64,000 nucleotides of DNA, from positions 1,914,001-1,978,000 of the forward strand of contig NZ_CP020612.1 in NCBI RefSeq assembly GCF_002105555.1, written 5' to 3'. Positions 1-5,554 of this stretch are shown piece by piece. Source of the stretch: Paracoccus contaminans. GTDB lineage: Bacteria > Pseudomonadota > Alphaproteobacteria > Rhodobacterales > Rhodobacteraceae. Within the stretch, counting starts at the first letter, position 1. Each line of letters begins with the position of its first letter. Made by a program: the position numbers and the translations under genes. A model generated the notes under the pieces. The model saw only the letters and a list, made by a program, of their open reading frames with translations, ran no database searches and was not told where the DNA came from.

Positions 1-1814
1 GCCGCATCGCGGCGCGCATAGCGTTCCTGATAGTATCCGATCAGGAACAGCCCCTGATCCTCGGCCGAATGCTGGGCGGGCAGGCCCTCGGCGAAACTGG
101 CCCACAACGCGCCGATCTCGCGGCCCAGACCGGCCGCGACCCGGCGTGCATGGTCCGCGTCCTTGATCCAGCGGGCGTCGGAATGACCGTTGCGCAACCG
201 CTTGAGATGATGGTTTTCTGCGGCGATACACAGCGCCGGGAACACCCTTCCCGGTGTCGCCGCGGCCGCGCCCAGGAACTTGTCCTTGACGGTGGAATTG
301 ATGCCGTCCCCCAGCGCCGCCATCTGCGCCTTTTCGAACAGGGCGAACAACCGGCCCAGTCGGCGGGCCACATTCGGATCGTCTGGATCGGCGCACATGA
401 GATAATCCCCCTGTTCGGTGCCGTCGGCGCGGCGCGGCAGGCGGCCGTCCAGGCGCATGTCACGGACGATCAGCCCCTTGATGAGCGCAAGTCGGATCGG
501 GTCCAGCACCTGGTCGCTGCGGATGCGCAGCACCAGCAGGGCCAGAAGCGCCCTTGGAAACCGTCCACCCGTGATGATGGCGCGCAGCAGCTCGCCCGCA
601 AGCAGGCGGGACACCCGCTCGCCGTCGTAACGGACGGTCCCGTTGTGAAGCTCGGCCGGCGCGGTCCGCAGCGTGGCGGCGCGGATCGAGACCGGCCGCC
701 GCTGCGGCGCCGGTTCAATCGCCACGTCCTGCGAATATGCGGCGTAATGCTGCGCGAGTGTCCCGAAGCTGCCCTCCCAGTAGAAGCGCAGCGACACGCG
801 GGCCGCGTTGGGTGCCAGGCCGGCGATGAAGAAGCGCACGCCTTCCGCAAGCTGGGGCGCGACCTCGCGCAAGGGCCGGCCCGCGGCGATGGCGCGCAGT
901 TTGTCCTGGATCTTTCGCTCGGCCATGTCCTCGGCGGTGCCGGCCTTGCTCGGCTCGCCGAACATGGCGCCACCCCAGAACTCTGCCTCCTCCGCCACCT
1001 CGGCGTCGCTGCAATCCGCCCAGAAGACCGTCGAGGCGTCCCCGATCTGAACGCGGTGGCCGCTGCCCGTCGTCAGATAGCGGTTGAGCACCGTGGTATA
1101 GGCGAAGGCTGCGGCCTGCGAGACGGGGGCATTGTCGCCGCTTTCGTGACCGTAGGACTCATAGGCCTCGGCGTTGAAGGACACGAGGCTGGCCCCCGCG
1201 GACTGCGCGCCCCAGACCCCCTTGATCTTGGGGTGCAGATCGGCAATCGGCGCCATGTCTCCGCTGACGAGGCAGGCGCCCTGACGACCCTGCCTTTCGC
1301 CTCCGATCCGCTGCCAGATCGCCTTTGCCGCCTGCCTGTCGTGGATGAAGCCCGCGCGATGCTGCCCGGCCAGCGCGAACACCGCATTCTGATCGACCAG
1401 ATCCTGATCCCAGTCCGGCGGTCCGAACCGGTCGGGCGTCCACGTCCGCAGGAAAGCAAGGAAGGCACGCAGGCCGGCATCGTCGGCATCGGCCAGCCAT
1501 CTTTCGTGGTCTGCCACGAAAAGGGCGTGTTCCTCTTGCGCGCGGGACGCGTTTCCGGCCGTCACCCCAAGGCAATAGGCAGTCTTGTCCCAGAGAAAGC
1601 AGGCCTTTTTGCCACTGGTCCTGATCGGCGGCTGCGGCACCAGCAGCACCCGCGGGCTGCGCTTCTTGTCATCCCCGCGCAGGTCCGCCACCCCGGCCAC
1701 CGACCCGTCCGGGTTCAGCAGCACGCAAAAGCCGATCTTCTCGGCCGAATAGCCATAGGGCGGCGCGTCGGGCAGGCGGTCATAGGCGCGGACCAGCGAG
1801 GCGAGCAGGCTCAT
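1..1814 (-). CDS. cas8c: Type I-C Cascade large subunit Cas8c (Csd1), 3' end cut by the window edge
   Basis: Large subunit of the type I-C Cascade complex, which recognises the PAM and helps recruit Cas3 to target DNA. About 604 codons are visible, starting MSLLASLVRAYDRLPDAPPY. A diagnostic Csd1 stretch, KIKGVWGAQSAGASLVSFNA, follows near residue 205. The visible end, with IGYYQERYARR, resembles the usual Csd1 C-terminus, so probably only a few residues are missing. The ATG overlaps the cas5c stop as ATGA, showing translational coupling in a cas5-cas8c operon. The next genes by I-C convention (cas7, cas4, cas1, cas2, array) would lie to the left, outside the window. No frameshift was found in the frame I translated. 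Confidence 0.93.
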   Translation of the reverse strand, partial: MSLLASLVRAYDRLPDAPPYGYSAEKIGFCVLLNPDGSVAGVADLRGDDKKRSPRVLLVPQPPIRTSGKKACFLWDKTAYCLGVTAGNASRAQEEHALFVADHERWLADADDAGLRAFLAFLRTWTPDRFGPPDWDQDLVDQNAVFALAGQHRAGFIHDRQAAKAIWQRIGGERQGRQGACLVSGDMAPIADLHPKIKGVWGAQSAGASLVSFNAEAYESYGHESGDNAPVSQAAAFAYTTVLNRYLTTGSGHRVQIGDASTVFWADCSDAEVAEEAEFWGGAMFGEPSKAGTAEDMAERKIQDKLRAIAAGRPLREVAPQLAEGVRFFIAGLAPNAARVSLRFYWEGSFGTLAQHYAAYSQDVAIEPAPQRRPVSIRAATLRTAPAELHNGTVRYDGERVSRLLAGELLRAIITGGRFPRALLALLVLRIRSDQVLDPIRLALIKGLIVRDMRLDGRLPRRADGTEQGDYLMCADPDDPNVARRLGRLFALFEKAQMAALGDGINSTVKDKFLGAAAATPGRVFPALCIAAENHHLKRLRNGHSDARWIKDADHARRVAAGLGREIGALWASFAEGLPAQHSAEDQGLFLIGYYQERYARRDA

Positions 1815-2509
1815 CCGCGGATATCCGGGCTGCCGGGGGCGGGCACGTCCAGCACGCCATCGCGCAGCGTGGCGCGGAAGAACAGCGACGGGCGCCCCGG
1901 CGCGGCATGGTCGATGTCCCACAGCACGAAGCCGAGGTCGCGGGGCGTGCCGAAGCCGTGCTCGACGGTCAGGGTGTCGGGATCGCGTTCGGGCAACGGC
2001 GCGCCCGGCGGGATCAGGGCGAAATGCGCCGCGAACTCGCGCGTGCCCAGGCAGGGCTGGTGAAAACACTGCCCCCGAGCGGCGCGCCGGTTGAACAGGT
2101 CAAGGTGCTTGCCCTCGTTGTCCTCGGCCCCGGCGCGGGGCGTCAGATCGAAATGCGCCTCGATGACATAGGACGGCGCGACCAGCACGCTCGAGGCGCG
2201 CTGCTGGCGGTCCTCGTCCACCAGTAACTGCACACCCCCCAGGTCGCCGCGGTGCATCGCCCGCCTGGCGAGGGTGGCCGAGGCCTTGCTGCCGACTTCG
2301 TTGCGGCGGATCGACTGAAAGCGGATCGGGTGCAGCACATGGATGCGGTCGATCGCCCAGCGGATCGCCGGCTTCCAGTGGATCGCCTCGAGAATGCCGC
2401 GCGCGGCCGAGGGGGTCATGACGTCATAGGAGACGCGCTCGACTTTCATCTCGGGCCGGGTGAACAAGGCGTGCGTGCCCCACACGTGCAGCCTGATCCC
2501 GTATGCCAT
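1811..2509 (-). CDS. cas5c: Type I-C Cas5 (Cas5c/Cas5d), Cascade subunit and crRNA-processing endonuclease
   Basis: In type I-C systems, which lack Cas6, Cas5 cuts the repeat hairpin to make crRNA and then caps the 5' handle in Cascade. The protein is 232 aa, beginning MAYGIRLHVWGTHALFTRPE, with the typical Cas5 N-terminal block YDVMTPSAARGILEAIHW near residue 30 and a conserved RNEVGSKA stretch near residue 70. I chose this ATG because GGAGGG lies directly upstream and the N-terminus matches the family; an in-frame ATG 22 codons further upstream (2575) has no comparable support. The stop overlaps the cas8c start. Roughly 300 bp separate it from cas3, and that gap holds a candidate regulatory RNA. 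Confidence 0.95.
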   Translation of the reverse strand: MAYGIRLHVWGTHALFTRPEMKVERVSYDVMTPSAARGILEAIHWKPAIRWAIDRIHVLHPIRFQSIRRNEVGSKASATLARRAMHRGDLGGVQLLVDEDRQQRASSVLVAPSYVIEAHFDLTPRAGAEDNEGKHLDLFNRRAARGQCFHQPCLGTREFAAHFALIPPGAPLPERDPDTLTVEHGFGTPRDLGFVLWDIDHAAPGRPSLFFRATLRDGVLDVPAPGSPDIRG

Positions 2510-2577: not shown

Positions 2578-2606
2578 ATCTTGAAAGTTCATTTCAGTGT
2601 AAGCAA
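2578..2606 (-). promoter_or_regulatory. Candidate promoter for the cas5c-cas8c operon
   Basis: Read on the minus strand, TTGCTT (rc of 2601-2606) and CAAGAT (rc of 2578-2583) are separated by exactly 17 nt, about 70 nt upstream of the cas5c ATG. Both boxes are imperfect (three of six consensus bases each), so this is tentative. A separate promoter is plausible because cas3 ends in a GC hairpin. The seed-match site for the crRNA-like RNA sits inside this element. Confidence 0.3.
2588..2603 (+). promoter_or_regulatory. Candidate Cascade target site: TTC PAM plus 13-nt protospacer-like seed match
   Basis: TTC (2588-2590), the canonical type I-C PAM, is followed by ATTTCAGTGTAAG (2591-2603). The spacer-like sequence after the solitary repeat downstream begins ATTTCGGTGTAAG (2756-2768). 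The two agree at 12 of 13 positions, and the one mismatch is at position 6, the base that type I Cascade flips out and does not read. Homology stops after position 13. Such a short match would be expected to allow binding without efficient cleavage. The site lies just after a TTGAAA box (2581-2586) and 28 nt before the mini-ORF ATG. It also overlaps the putative cas5c promoter on the other strand. Confidence 0.7.
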
Positions 2607-2630
2607 GCCTATGGCAGGTAAGGAGGTGAG

Positions 2631-2711
2631 ATGATGCAGGTAACGCGGCGGAAGGTATTTGCCCTCATTGCAGGGTGCTTGGTGGCTCGCGTGCTTGAAG
2701 AGCCTCCATAG
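2631..2711 (+). CDS. 26-codon mini-ORF with perfect Shine-Dalgarno, candidate CreT-like toxin
   Basis: The ORF reads ATG ATG and encodes 26 residues: a basic start (MMQVTRRK), a short hydrophobic core (VFALIAGCLVARVL) and EEPP before TAG. Upstream is AAGGAGGTG (2620-2628), a full complement of the 16S anti-SD, 2 nt from the first and 5 nt from the second ATG. Such strength is unusual for a random ORF. Known haloarchaeal CreT elements also combine a strong SD with a mini-ORF, lie between cas genes and precede a crRNA-like antitoxin in the same orientation. The codons (GTA, ATT, GCA, TTG, CTT, CCT) look atypical for this GC-rich genome. Whether any toxicity comes from the peptide or from the RNA cannot be told. 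Toxin function is inference; the ORF, its SD and its position are seen. Confidence 0.45.
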   Translation: MMQVTRRKVFALIAGCLVARVLEEPP

Positions 2712-2728
2712 TCACGGCTCAGAATCGA

Positions 2729-2755
2729 GTCGCGGCCAGCCGCGTGGATTGAAAC
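2729..2755 (+). repeat. Solitary type I-C CRISPR-repeat-like element
   Basis: A single 27-nt unit begins GTCGCGGC, forms a perfect 6-bp stem (CGCGGC/GCCGCG, 2-nt CA apex) and ends TGGATTGAAAC. The ends match the common type I-C repeat (GTCGC... at the left, GCGTGGATTGAAAC at the right). It is several bases shorter than the usual 32 nt because the hairpin is smaller. There is no second full copy within a spacer length and no array in the window, so this is not an ordinary array. It sits between cas3 and cas5c, on the strand opposite to the cas genes. Cas5c should be able to cut at the base of such a hairpin. Confidence 0.85.
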
Positions 2756-2782
2756 ATTTCGGTGTAAGTCCTGAGGGCTAAA

Positions 2783-2806
2783 GGCGCCCCGCCCGCGCGG
2801 GACGCC
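2783..2806 (-). terminator. GC hairpin after cas3, possible terminator
   Basis: GGCG-C-CCCGC pairs with GCGGG-A-CGCC around a short loop, with one mismatch, starting 5 nt after the cas3 stop. On the cas3 strand it is followed by TTTAG, a weak U-tract. It could end cas3 transcripts and also form the 3' end of the crRNA-like RNA on the other strand. Confidence 0.4.
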
Positions 2807-2810
2807 GCTC

Positions 2811-5045
2811 TCAGATCAGGCACGCCTCGTTGGCGAGATACTCCGCATCTTCCCACCACAGCCCGCTGTCGGCGTGATACAGGGGCAGATCGTCCAGCAC
2901 GCAGAACTGGTCGCCGCGCAGGGCGGGCGCGTGGAACGACGCATGGCCATTGCCGACCAGCAGGGCACGGGCCGTCGCGGGCACCTGCACGACATAGGGC
3001 TGCAAGGCACGGGCGATCTGACCCGAGCGGACGGCTTCGAACCCAAGCTTCTCCACCCACGCACGCGCCTCGTCATCGCCCGGCACGATGACCGGCAACA
3101 TCGTCGTTTCGATTATGCGGAACGCCTCGGCCGTGCTGCGGAACCGGAAATTGGTGTCGGACGGCGTGGCGATCATGCTGGCCACCATCGGCTGGCCCAG
3201 CCTGTCGGGACCGGCTCCCCAATAGACCTCCTCGAACCAGTCGCGGATCGCGGCCGGGTCCAGCAAATCGGCATGGCGCGCGGCGATCCGCCGCACGACC
3301 TTGGACAGCGTGTCGATCTCGCGCGGGATCGGCCGGTCCGGGGCGCGGAACACGGTCAGCGTGCTGTCCTCGACCGGCCGCTTTCCGTTGCGGTTCACCC
3401 GGCCGGCGGCCTGCACGATCGAATCCAGCCCGGCCTCGGCCCGCCAGCCTTTCGGGAAATCCAGGTCCACGCCCGCCTCGATCAGGCTGGTCGCGATCAG
3501 GCGGCAGGGGGACCCGTCCGCCAGCCGCCGGGTGATCTCGGCGATAATCGCCCGCCGGTGCGCCGGGTATTGCCGGGTGGTCAGGTGGATCACCCCCTCC
3601 AGCCCCGACCTGCGGGCGGCGCGGTAAAGGTCCAGCGCATGGGCGCGGCTGTTCACGATGACAAAGCCCTGCGGCGTCGCCGCCAGCCCGGCCAGCAGCG
3701 CGTCGTCGTCCATCTCGCCGCCCTGCACGATCCGCGCCCGGCGCAGCCGCGCGGCCAGCGCGTCAGGGTCGGGCGCCAGTTCGCGCCCCTGCAGCGCCAG
3801 CCCGCCGGGGCCAAGCTGGCGGCTGTCGAAGGCGGGCTGTGTCGCCGTGCACAGCACCACCGAACAGCGGTAGTGCGCGCAAAGCGTGTCGAGCATCCGC
3901 AGCACCGGCAGGAGCAGCTCGCGCGGCAGGGTCTGCGCCTCGTCCAGCACGATCACCGAGCCCGCGATGTTGTGCAGCTTGCGGCAGCGTGCGGGGCGGG
4001 CGGCGAACAGGCTCTCGAAGAACTGGACGTTCGTGGTGACGACCAGCGGCGCAGCCCAGTCCTCCATCGCGAGATGCCGCTTCTCGCGGTCCCCCTTCTC
4101 GAGGCGCTCCTCCTCGATGGCCGAGTGGTGTTCCAGCACCCCGTCGCCCAGCAGGTCGCCAAAGATCTTTGCCGTCTGGTCGATGATCGAGGTATAGGGG
4201 ATGGCATAGATGATCCGCCGGTGCCCATGCCGCGCGGCATGGTCCAGCGCAAAGCCCAGCGAGGCCAGCGTCTTGCCGCCGCCGGTCGGCACGGTCAGCG
4301 TGAACAGCCCCGGCGCCATCCCGGCCGCGCCGCGCACGTGGCCCAGGATGTCGGCCCGCAAGCGGTTGAGGTCGCTGTCTGCGGCGAAACCGGCCATATG
4401 CGCGTCGAACCGGGCGCGCCAGTCGGGCAGCCGCGCCGCCAGCGTCGGCCAATCGCGGTCGTGGACCAGACCGTCGAGGCGCGCATAGAAGCGTTCCGTG
4501 TCGCGGAAATCGGCATCGACGAGGCAGGAAAAGATCATCCGCGCCGCGACCGACAGATCGAACCCTGCCGTTCCTGGCCGCATTAGCGCGCGCAACTCGT
4601 GCCCGGCCGGGGTCAGATCGACGGTGGTGGCCTCGGAAATCCCGGCAGGAACCCGATCGACGAACTGCTCCAGCCGGCGCGCAAGGCTGCCCTCGGCCCC
4701 GAGACGGTCAGGCAGCCCGGCATGGTGGCCAAGGATCGCATAGGCCAGCACCTCGGCCACCAGGCGCATCGCGGGCGGCGCATGGGCCAGCAGGAATGCC
4801 CCGCCCGCGGTCGAATGCTCGACGCGGACGTTTTCACCGTTCAGCACGCGGTCGAAGCGAGGATCGTATTTGCCGAAATCATGGAAGCGGCCAGCCAGCG
4901 CCGCCGCAGCGCCCAGGCCGATAAACTGCGCACGCTCTGCCGACAAGGCAGCCGTTGCCTCCAGATGGTCCGGCAGTTCCTGCCAGTCCGATCTGTCGGC
5001 AGAACGGCCGGAATGGGCGTAATAATGCTTGGTCACTCCGGACAC
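2811..5045 (-). CDS. cas3: Type I-C CRISPR nuclease-helicase Cas3
   Basis: Effector nuclease and 3'-5' helicase that degrades DNA marked by Cascade. The 744-aa protein looks intact. An N-terminal HD nuclease contains RFHDFGKYDPRF near residue 54 and GHHAGL near residue 108. The helicase has Walker A TVPTGGGKT near residue 251, a DEAQ box (VIVLDEAQTLP), CTATQ (motif III), and motif VI IVQAAGRVNRNG. The GTG start is preceded by GGAAAG; a second GTG three codons later (MTKHYYAHSG) is equally plausible. The gene is the first on its strand after about 970 bp with no functional gene on that strand, so its promoter should lie just above 5045, in AT-richer sequence. No inactivating change is visible. 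Confidence 0.96.
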   Translation of the reverse strand: MSGVTKHYYAHSGRSADRSDWQELPDHLEATAALSAERAQFIGLGAAAALAGRFHDFGKYDPRFDRVLNGENVRVEHSTAGGAFLLAHAPPAMRLVAEVLAYAILGHHAGLPDRLGAEGSLARRLEQFVDRVPAGISEATTVDLTPAGHELRALMRPGTAGFDLSVAARMIFSCLVDADFRDTERFYARLDGLVHDRDWPTLAARLPDWRARFDAHMAGFAADSDLNRLRADILGHVRGAAGMAPGLFTLTVPTGGGKTLASLGFALDHAARHGHRRIIYAIPYTSIIDQTAKIFGDLLGDGVLEHHSAIEEERLEKGDREKRHLAMEDWAAPLVVTTNVQFFESLFAARPARCRKLHNIAGSVIVLDEAQTLPRELLLPVLRMLDTLCAHYRCSVVLCTATQPAFDSRQLGPGGLALQGRELAPDPDALAARLRRARIVQGGEMDDDALLAGLAATPQGFVIVNSRAHALDLYRAARRSGLEGVIHLTTRQYPAHRRAIIAEITRRLADGSPCRLIATSLIEAGVDLDFPKGWRAEAGLDSIVQAAGRVNRNGKRPVEDSTLTVFRAPDRPIPREIDTLSKVVRRIAARHADLLDPAAIRDWFEEVYWGAGPDRLGQPMVASMIATPSDTNFRFRSTAEAFRIIETTMLPVIVPGDDEARAWVEKLGFEAVRSGQIARALQPYVVQVPATARALLVGNGHASFHAPALRGDQFCVLDDLPLYHADSGLWWEDAEYLANEACLI

Positions 5046-5303: not shown

Positions 5304-5554
5304 ATGACGATGGGCAACATAACGATTCGCAACCTGTCGGCTGAGGTTCATGATCACCTCCGCCAGAAGGCCAACAGCAACGTCGCAGCGTGGAGGCCGA
5401 GGTTCCTTCGATCCTGATCGGATCATACGTCGCCAAGCACACCGGCGGCTTCGGACAGAAACTGCGGGCACGGTTCGCAGATCACGGGCTCATCGGCGAT
5501 GATCTGTCCATCAAGCGCGCCCCGGCTCCTGGGAAAGGAGCAGACCTTTCATAA
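5304..5554 (+). pseudogene. FitA/VapB-type antitoxin, frameshifted remnant
   Basis: The N-terminus MGNITIRNLSAEVHDHLRQK is a typical ribbon-helix-helix FitA antitoxin start (inner ATG at 5310). After QKANSN the frame is lost. Reading one base off gives RSVEAEVPSILIGSYVAK, then LRARFADHGLIGDDL to a TAA. Restoring one G near 5380 (AAC-GGT-CGC-AGC-GTG) would join the halves as NGRSVEAEV, exactly the family pattern, so a one-base deletion is likely. The stop overlaps the toxin remnant in the usual antitoxin-toxin fashion. In life the antitoxin binds DNA and neutralises a PIN-domain RNase. Confidence 0.75.

Follow-up and report, generated by a model that had tools for sequence, protein, structure and literature searches.

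What does a solitary CRISPR-like repeat do between cas3 and cas5c of a type I-C operon, and what is the function of the very small open reading frame beside it? The initial annotation of the window (the whole stretch of DNA analysed here, 64 kb long) described at this place a crRNA-like guide with a partial self-target, and interpreted the pair as a CreTA-type addiction module or, alternatively, a cas-regulatory unit. According to excerpts of the published reports, CreTA modules have been described in type I-B systems (Haloarcula hispanica and Halobacterium hubeiense) and in type I-F systems (Acinetobacter) (PMC8501985, PMC10097628). The evidence gathered here favors a CreTA-type, putative Cascade-repressed module in the type I-C operon of a Paracoccus-group bacterium, to which a probability of roughly 0.7 is assigned.

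Organization of the Module and Its cas Neighbors

The gap between cas3 and cas5c comprises 301 bases and holds a compact module on the plus strand, opposite in orientation to the minus-strand cas operon. The repeat, the guide, the TTC-flanked target, and the position between cas3 and cas5c are all present as the initial annotation described them, and the order it proposed, a mini-ORF (2631-2711) followed by a guide RNA (from 2756), is also correct. The features of the region, in window coordinates, are the following:

1..1814, minus strand: cas8c (profile match to TIGR01863), continuing past the window edge
1811..2509, minus strand: cas5c (profile match to TIGR01876)
2588..2590, plus strand: PAM-like trinucleotide TTC of the self-target, read from the sequence; TTC-flanked targets occur in 29 of 120 distinct cas5 loci
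2591..2603, plus strand: self-target (protospacer seed) ATTTCAGTGTAAG, identical to the guide at 12 of 13 positions, with the mismatch at position 6
2620..2629, plus strand: strong Shine-Dalgarno sequence AAGGAGGTGA, read from the sequence, with an 8-nt core scored
2631..2711, plus strand: mini-ORF of 26 codons, MMQVTRRKVFALIAGCLVARVLEEPP, a putative CreT-like micro-protein by its likeness to peptide family B
2634, plus strand: second start of the mini-ORF
2729..2755, plus strand: degenerate solitary CRISPR repeat GTCGCGGCCAGCCGCGTGGATTGAAAC, as compared with the array repeat of the genome
2745..2755, plus strand: 11-nt 5' handle of the solitary repeat, TGGATTGAAAC
2756..2782, plus strand: spacer-like guide of a CreA-like RNA, matching the self-target at positions 1-5 and 7-13
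2756..2768, plus strand: guide 13-mer ATTTCGGTGTAAG
2783..2806, plus strand: GC-rich hairpin GGCGCCCCGCCCGCGCGGGACGCC, the probable 3' end or terminator of the guide RNA
2811..5045, minus strand: cas3 (HD domain TIGR01596 above the cut-off, helicase TIGR01587 just below it)

The next gene after cas8c is cas7c, outside the window, and the effector genes cas5c, cas8c, cas7c, and cas3 are apparently intact in this genome. The target lies between cas5c and the mini-ORF, about 80 nt upstream of the cas5c start, and begins 40 nt upstream of the mini-ORF. The hairpin at 2783-2806 also sits just beyond the 3' end of cas3, which is encoded on the opposite strand. The solitary repeat folds with a 5-bp stem, and for both the repeat and the 3' hairpin the folding advantage over shuffled sequence is slight (z about -1.0 to -1.3). 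A consensus scan of 2450-2900 found neither a sigma-70-type promoter nor a T-run terminator. Farther upstream of cas3, the plus strand at 5304-5417 carries the beginning of a FitA-like ribbon-helix-helix antitoxin (PF22513, E 5.3e-6), scoring 26.7 bits where the cut-off is 27; it is apparently the remnant of a broken toxin-antitoxin system.

Match Between the Guide and Its Target

TTC is the PAM of type I-C systems. For type I-B, TTC is named in excerpts of PMC8501985. Beside this trinucleotide, guide and target are identical at positions 1-5 and 7-13, with position 6 as the sole difference, so the single mismatch claimed by the initial annotation holds; over positions 1-5 and 7-11 the match is 10 of 10. 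On both strands of the window, the target is the only other place with two or fewer mismatches to the guide 13-mer, the next best being three places with 3 mismatches each. The TTC-flanked seed TTCATTTCNGTGTA occurs a single time in the genome of 3,033,494 bases, at the target, and its backwards control has no occurrences. The chance of at most one mismatch in 13, previously calculated as 6e-7 per position, is correct for equal base frequencies, and the recurrence of the arrangement in other genomes is far stronger evidence than this figure.

Recurrence Across cas5 Loci

Loci containing cas5 were gathered from genomes of the same genus, family, order, and class, together with the best 80 of at least 585 matching stretches in species-representative contigs, a sample selected for likeness and kinship to the locus of the window. 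Merging seven duplicates reduced 127 loci to 120 distinct ones (L127 duplicates L024, Paracoccus sp. M683, and L131 duplicates L051, Paracoccus endophyticus). Left out were L119, whose cas5 match is below the family cut-off despite a score of 9, L115 and L121 (partial cas5 matches), L137 and L138 (below the cut-off), and L021 (a 31-codon fragment). A module was called when two elements coincided: a handle within 800 bp upstream of cas5 agreeing with TGGRTNGAAAC at 9 or more of 11 positions, GAAAC being fixed, and a TTC-flanked site on either strand matching the guide at 8 or more of positions 1-5 and 7-11.

This rule is passed by 29 of the 120 distinct loci, that of the window included, with 15 of them matching at 10 of 10; none of 120 reversed regions and none of 120 coding stretches of 830 bp from cas5/cas8 pass it. 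The hosts include members of the Rhodobacterales and Rhizobiales as well as Halomonas, Azotobacter vinelandii, and a Desulfobulbaceae MAG. By this strict rule, 91 loci lack a module. Of each set of 120, a handle agreeing at 10 or more of 11 positions is present in 38 real regions, in 1 reversed region, and in 3 of the 830-bp stretches taken from the adjacent cas5/cas8 coding DNA; at 9 or more, the numbers are 53, 11, and 20. Because few handles exist in the reversed and coding controls, these test the handle and the match together.

The match itself is tested by controls that use the guide only. Among the 38 loci with a handle at 10 or more positions, a TTC-flanked match in their own region is found in 29 and is missing in 9. 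None of these 38 guides matches in the coding DNA of its locus, and none matches when reversed. Guides compared with the regions of other loci match in 48 of 4522 trials; homologous guides are included in this control, and some of its high scores may come from them. A first version of the count, made on 116 loci with duplicates and L119 still included, yielded 29 of 37 own matches, 42 of 4255 cross matches, and 0 of 37 reversed matches; shuffled guides, tried on this set as well, matched in 108 of 7400 trials. Pure chance was rejected on the basis of the reversed, coding, cross, and shuffled-guide controls.

Several variants accompany the typical form. Relaxed rules alone found L051 (handle ending in GAAAT), L068, L079, L091, and L094, none of which is among the 29, yet L051 is included in peptide family B. 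In L068, L091, and L094, the guide-target matches of this relaxed search adjoin TTT instead of TTC. L093, the Desulfobulbaceae MAG, has a second repeat with a decayed handle after the guide, that is, a two-repeat form. In L020, the target sequence is in tandem (TTTCACATACAGATCATA twice), and one copy only adjoins the PAM.

Pairing Pattern and Co-Variation

Over the 29 loci, mismatches at guide positions 1 to 10 number 1, 2, 3, 0, 0, 20, 3, 5, 4, and 1, and at positions 11 to 20 they number 1, 21, 3, 3, 10, 9, 16, 21, 23, and 26. The low values at positions 1-5 and 7-11 are partly built in, since the loci were called by matching there. Among the unscored positions, 6 and 12 are mismatched at chance level (20 and 21 loci, with about 22 of 29 expected by chance), and 13 and 14 show 3 mismatches each. 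As read from these alignments, the pattern at the unscored positions is the 6-nt period of Cascade. Pairing at positions 1-5 and 7-11 is likewise given for the CreA of H. hubeiense in excerpts of PMC8501985. The evidence free of circularity consists of the comparison with controls and of positions 6 and 12-14, which did not enter the score.

From one genome to another the guides change, and their targets largely change with them. Across 76 pairs of loci, the target follows the guide at 299 of 343 differing positions, a proportion that is partly built in and comes from pairs that are not independent. Between the window and L024, the target follows at 3 of 3 differing seed positions; full agreement is also seen for L108 and L110 (4/4), L032 and L135 (3/3), and L017 and L032 (2/2). 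Targets follow incompletely in L022 and L014 (3/4), in L109 and L110 (3/4), in L014 and L024 (2/4), and in L035 and L043 (1/2). This comparison of orthologous gaps had been suggested by the initial annotation, which named independent drift of guide and target as the result that would count against its reading; because targets largely follow their guides, such drift is not what is seen overall.

Mini-ORF Families and Protein-Level Selection

Among the mini-ORFs of the related modules, two families can be recognized. Family B, inverted relative to the operon as in the window, comprises L022, L024, L051, L014, L040, and L045; these six sequences share nine invariant columns and the consensus MKRRxYALRLxIGxFxIALELDLEPP. 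L130, with the peptide MQHGKSRRIWVIRLRITQGALEITVEPP, also belongs to it, as was read by eye and then confirmed. Family A runs with the operon (L017, L020, L032, and L135) and has the core PP[KT]P...LEC.A.ALR..L(K/R)..P. Its PP[KT]P near the start and its hydrophobic stretch (LEC.A.ALR..L) are unlike family B, although the guide logic is alike. L003, L004, and L012 encode hydrophobic peptides outside both families, and L005 and L108-L110 have no convincing ORF by eye. The list of short ORFs was made with a loose Shine-Dalgarno rule, and many of its entries are probably chance.

Codon position 3 is the most variable in both families. In family B, pN/pS is 0.36 in the frame of the ORF (six sequences, 22 gapless codons) and 0.99 and 2.56 in the other frames; in family A, it is 0.32 (four sequences, 28 gapless codons) against 0.66 and 2.14. 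The pS values are near saturation (0.75 in B and 0.81 in A), and those of pN are 0.27 and 0.26, respectively. By these substitution patterns, the mini-ORF is evolving as a protein in the two families of relatives.

The peptide of the window itself has a mean score of 21.0 against seven family-B peptides, with the next unrelated ORF at 11.1 among the 376 ORFs of 22-32 codons in the window. Shuffled versions of the peptide reach its score with p 0.0006, or 0.0014 when it is read from the second start, and it is 27-46% identical (gaps allowed) to six family-B members. A profile of six members did not report it in its own genome at E ≤ 0.05. Because the profile missed it, and the assignment comes from one alignment statistic, the peptide is considered a probable, diverged member of family B. 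Applied to 394 genomes of the same bacterial family, this profile matched strongly once, at L122, which lies in the cas gap of genome G114 at the position also seen in L014/L029, and weakly twice (E 4.2e-4 and 0.038).

Four micro-proteins were compared with Pfam. For three of them, that of the window included, nothing was found at E ≤ 1, and the L012 peptide gave one weak match below the cut-off (YgaP-like_TM, E 0.043). Membership in a known small-protein family was rejected, as no Pfam family exceeded its cut-off among the four. A plasmid collection had no match to the L022 peptide or to a 351-bp region of the window.

These data bear on whether the module is a CreTA in the strict sense, in which the toxin would be an RNA, acting for example by capturing a tRNA during initiation, and the sequence of the peptide would be irrelevant. 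Excerpts of the CreTA literature report that the three characterised CreT act as RNA despite carrying mini-ORFs with strong initiation signals, and the Shine-Dalgarno sequence of the window is indeed very strong. They also report that the mini-ORF of the Acinetobacter CreT is conserved, yet synonymous changes abolished toxicity; for this reason, a conserved ORF alone is no proof of a peptide toxin. An RNA toxin is nonetheless unlikely here, because the amino acids of families B and A are kept although their synonymous sites approach saturation. Furthermore, the early arginine codons differ between members of family B (CGG, CGC, CGT, CGA, AGA, and AGG). No fixed rare-codon pair is therefore kept in this family, and a toxin that captures tRNA through rare codons is unsupported. 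Judging from the relatives, the product of the module is probably a micro-protein and not a toxic RNA such as that of the characterised CreT.

Geometry of the cas3-cas5 Slot

In the eight family-B loci, that of the window included, 40, 45, or 90-93 nt separate the edge of the target from the ORF start downstream of it, and 36-47 nt separate the ORF stop from the guide. The distance from the target to the cas5 anchor ranges in these loci from 3 to 186 nt, the anchor being the start of the cas5 match, which in some loci falls about 15-30 nt within the gene. The family-A targets lie upstream of the mini-ORF, 316-349 nt from the anchor. Since the spacing to the ORF is kept and that to cas5 is not, the target appears tied to the mini-ORF rather than to cas5.

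Regulation of the cas genes themselves, alone or in addition, is the main rival explanation. In its exclusive form, the guide would be a CreR-type autoregulator that directs Cascade to the regulatory region of cas5c-cas8c-cas7c so as to adjust their expression, and the mini-ORF would be incidental or a leader. CreR is a crRNA-like RNA that regulates cas genes, reported for types I-B, I-E, and V-A in excerpts of reviews, and the module resembles it in having a crRNA-like guide with a limited match near putative cas promoters, in this case about 80 nt upstream of cas5c. In L051, L045, and L040, moreover, the target edge is only 3, 23, and 35 nt from the cas5 anchor, so a bound Cascade could also touch cas5 expression there. 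Modules with a guide and a target but no convincing ORF, those of L108-L110, speak for this view as well. Nevertheless, autoregulation as the whole explanation is improbable: the family-B targets hold their distance to the mini-ORF and not to cas5, the family-A targets are far from the anchor, and, unlike in CreR, a mini-ORF selected as protein in families A and B stands between target and guide. The cas-regulatory unit that the initial annotation offered as an alternative is accordingly less likely as the only role.

The three loci L108-L110 come from one genus, and in each the guide and a co-varying target are about 95 nt apart; they are possibly pure CreR-type regulators of type I-C.

Among 16 distinct gaps without a module, 10 measure 75-135 bases, 3 measure 161-234, and 3 measure 377-405, the last holding a different ORF of about 100 residues. 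These gaps are as would be expected for a discrete insert in a slot able to hold other cargo. A conserved ORF of about 100 residues (VYKVTWPNGKIYVGSDLTD...) occupies the same slot, with no guide module, in L016, L019, L025, L027, and L030, and the L025 copy has no match in Pfam.

The Solitary Repeat, the True Array, and Apparently Damaged Acquisition Genes

The true array of this genome (L002 6254-7104, about 3 kb beyond the window edge) contains 13 copies of a different repeat, GTCGCCTCCCGCAGGGGGGCGTGGATCGAAAC; the repeat at 2729-2755 is therefore ectopic and degenerate. Its last 14 nt, GCGTGGATTGAAAC, occur a single time in the genome. An array remnant was rejected, given that the handle is unique in the genome and unlike the array repeat.

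The cas1c gene of this genome (L002:7574-9037, just outside the window) matches its profile only from position 51 onward, and a genome-wide search at E ≤ 0.001 revealed no cas4. An isolated repeat fragment, GTTTCGATCCACGTCGCC (L002 8508-8525), is situated at the start of the truncated cas1. Spacer acquisition looks broken while the effector genes look intact, as expected if something holds Cascade in place with no need for new spacers.

Damaged acquisition genes and the piece at cas1 indicate that stray repeats do exist in the locus, and the relaxed handle (9 of 11), which turns up in 11 reversed and 20 coding controls of 120 each, proves little by itself. A relic, namely a stray array repeat with a fortuitous match, is even so very improbable here and refuted as a general explanation, as a handle plus a matching target is found in 29 of 120 loci against 0 of 120 in each control, with a 6-nt mismatch period and kept spacing. 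An RNA anti-CRISPR of phage origin (Racr), a solitary repeat unit that captures Cas proteins and is described from viral genomes in excerpts of PMC10651486, is scarcely credible: the repeat is indeed solitary and outside an array, but it is embedded among the cas genes, recurs at this position in other genomes, and comes with a matching target beside a PAM. Racrs are encoded by phages or other mobile elements; a search of the plasmid collection with the 351-bp region gave no match.

Comparison with Known Systems

The module shares with CreTA its location within the cas locus, here between cas3 and cas5c, and a degenerate ectopic repeat that keeps the handle, of which CreTA has one or two. It also shares the partial guide-target match at positions 1-5 and 7-11 beside a PAM, and a mini-ORF with strong initiation signals downstream of the target, in this case the Shine-Dalgarno sequence before ATG. 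The CreTA target overlies the promoter region of creT; the one described here begins 40 nt upstream of the mini-ORF, in a region where the consensus scan revealed no promoter. It departs from the characterised examples in belonging to type I-C, in being inverted relative to the cas operon, and in having one repeat plus a hairpin, whereas two repeats are said to be commoner than one in creA in excerpts of PMC8501985 and PMC10097628. A further difference is that the mini-ORFs of relatives (26-32 residues) are conserved as protein instead of acting as an RNA toxin, which extends to the ORF of the window only indirectly, through its likeness to family B.

A protein toxin repressed by a CreA guide and activated by anti-CRISPRs is described as CrePA in excerpts of PMC12737573, where CreP typically carries a KilA-N domain. 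The module resembles CrePA in its putative protein product under the control of CreA and Cascade, and it differs in that its products are micro-proteins, that of the window without a Pfam match. The term I-C is absent from the main texts of the CreTA papers PMC8501985, PMC10097628, and PMC9458426. Among the matches listed, none links CreTA-type modules to type I-C, and both the original CreTA report (10.1126/science.abe5601) and the CreR report (10.1016/j.chom.2023.08.005) may hold such examples.

Proposed Mechanism

Cas5c is the processing enzyme of type I-C systems. Under the favored CreTA-type reading, one transcript would give both the mini-ORF and the guide, and Cas5c would trim it at the repeat to yield a crRNA-like RNA. 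Cascade (Cas5c-Cas8c-Cas7c) loaded with this guide would bind from 2588 onward and block transcription, thereby silencing the mini-ORF. The match beyond about 13 nt would be too weak to recruit cutting by Cas3, and its shortness would thus avoid self-cutting. Loss of Cascade, or its inhibition by an anti-CRISPR, would allow the 26-residue peptide to be made, and this would harm or arrest the cell. The outcome would be that the effector genes are retained in the genome and that carriers of anti-CRISPRs are punished. This scheme draws on the anatomy of the locus and on excerpts of the CreTA work (PMC8501985, PMC10097628, PMC9458426).

The initial proposal of a CreTA-type unit therefore survives in part. 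The locus does contain a guide whose self-target, matched in the seed only, precedes a mini-ORF, and the arrangement recurs with different guides and largely following targets; strict CreTA does not fit, since families A and B of the mini-ORF are selected as protein and the characterised CreT is an RNA. As the protein-level selection in relatives contradicts an RNA toxin, if indirectly, the module is best described as CreTA-like in its working and not as CreTA proper.

Conclusions

Other genomes share this arrangement, with guide and target sequences that differ from those of the window but match each other, which suggests an alarm built into the locus that responds to the loss or blockage of the immune complex. 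Beyond this single locus, the evidence tilts slightly toward a widespread and exchangeable type I-C slot in Proteobacteria, in which a constant Cascade-guided RNA would repress unrelated micro-proteins swapped in and out, the effector being freed when Cascade is lost or blocked. The cargo of such a slot would then include, with a little better than even odds, the charged, alternating-hydrophobic peptides of family B, the hydrophobic, helix-like peptides of family A with their N-terminal PP[KT]P, and others. If this is true, the slot would represent a third branch beside CreTA, whose product is an RNA, and CrePA, whose product is a large protein.

Toxin modules regulated by CRISPR guides are hard to find because both guide and toxin are tiny and poorly conserved, a difficulty that the CreTA authors themselves state in the excerpts of their work. 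The rule combining a handle with a TTC-flanked match finds modules in about one quarter of the sampled cas5c loci (29 of 120) and in none of two sets of controls. Sequence statistics become feasible with the families obtained in this way, two of which point to peptide products. If these peptides are toxic, they would constitute a third class of Cascade-guarded effector and would offer ready tests of why hosts keep costly CRISPR effectors, including the one described here, whose acquisition genes look broken.
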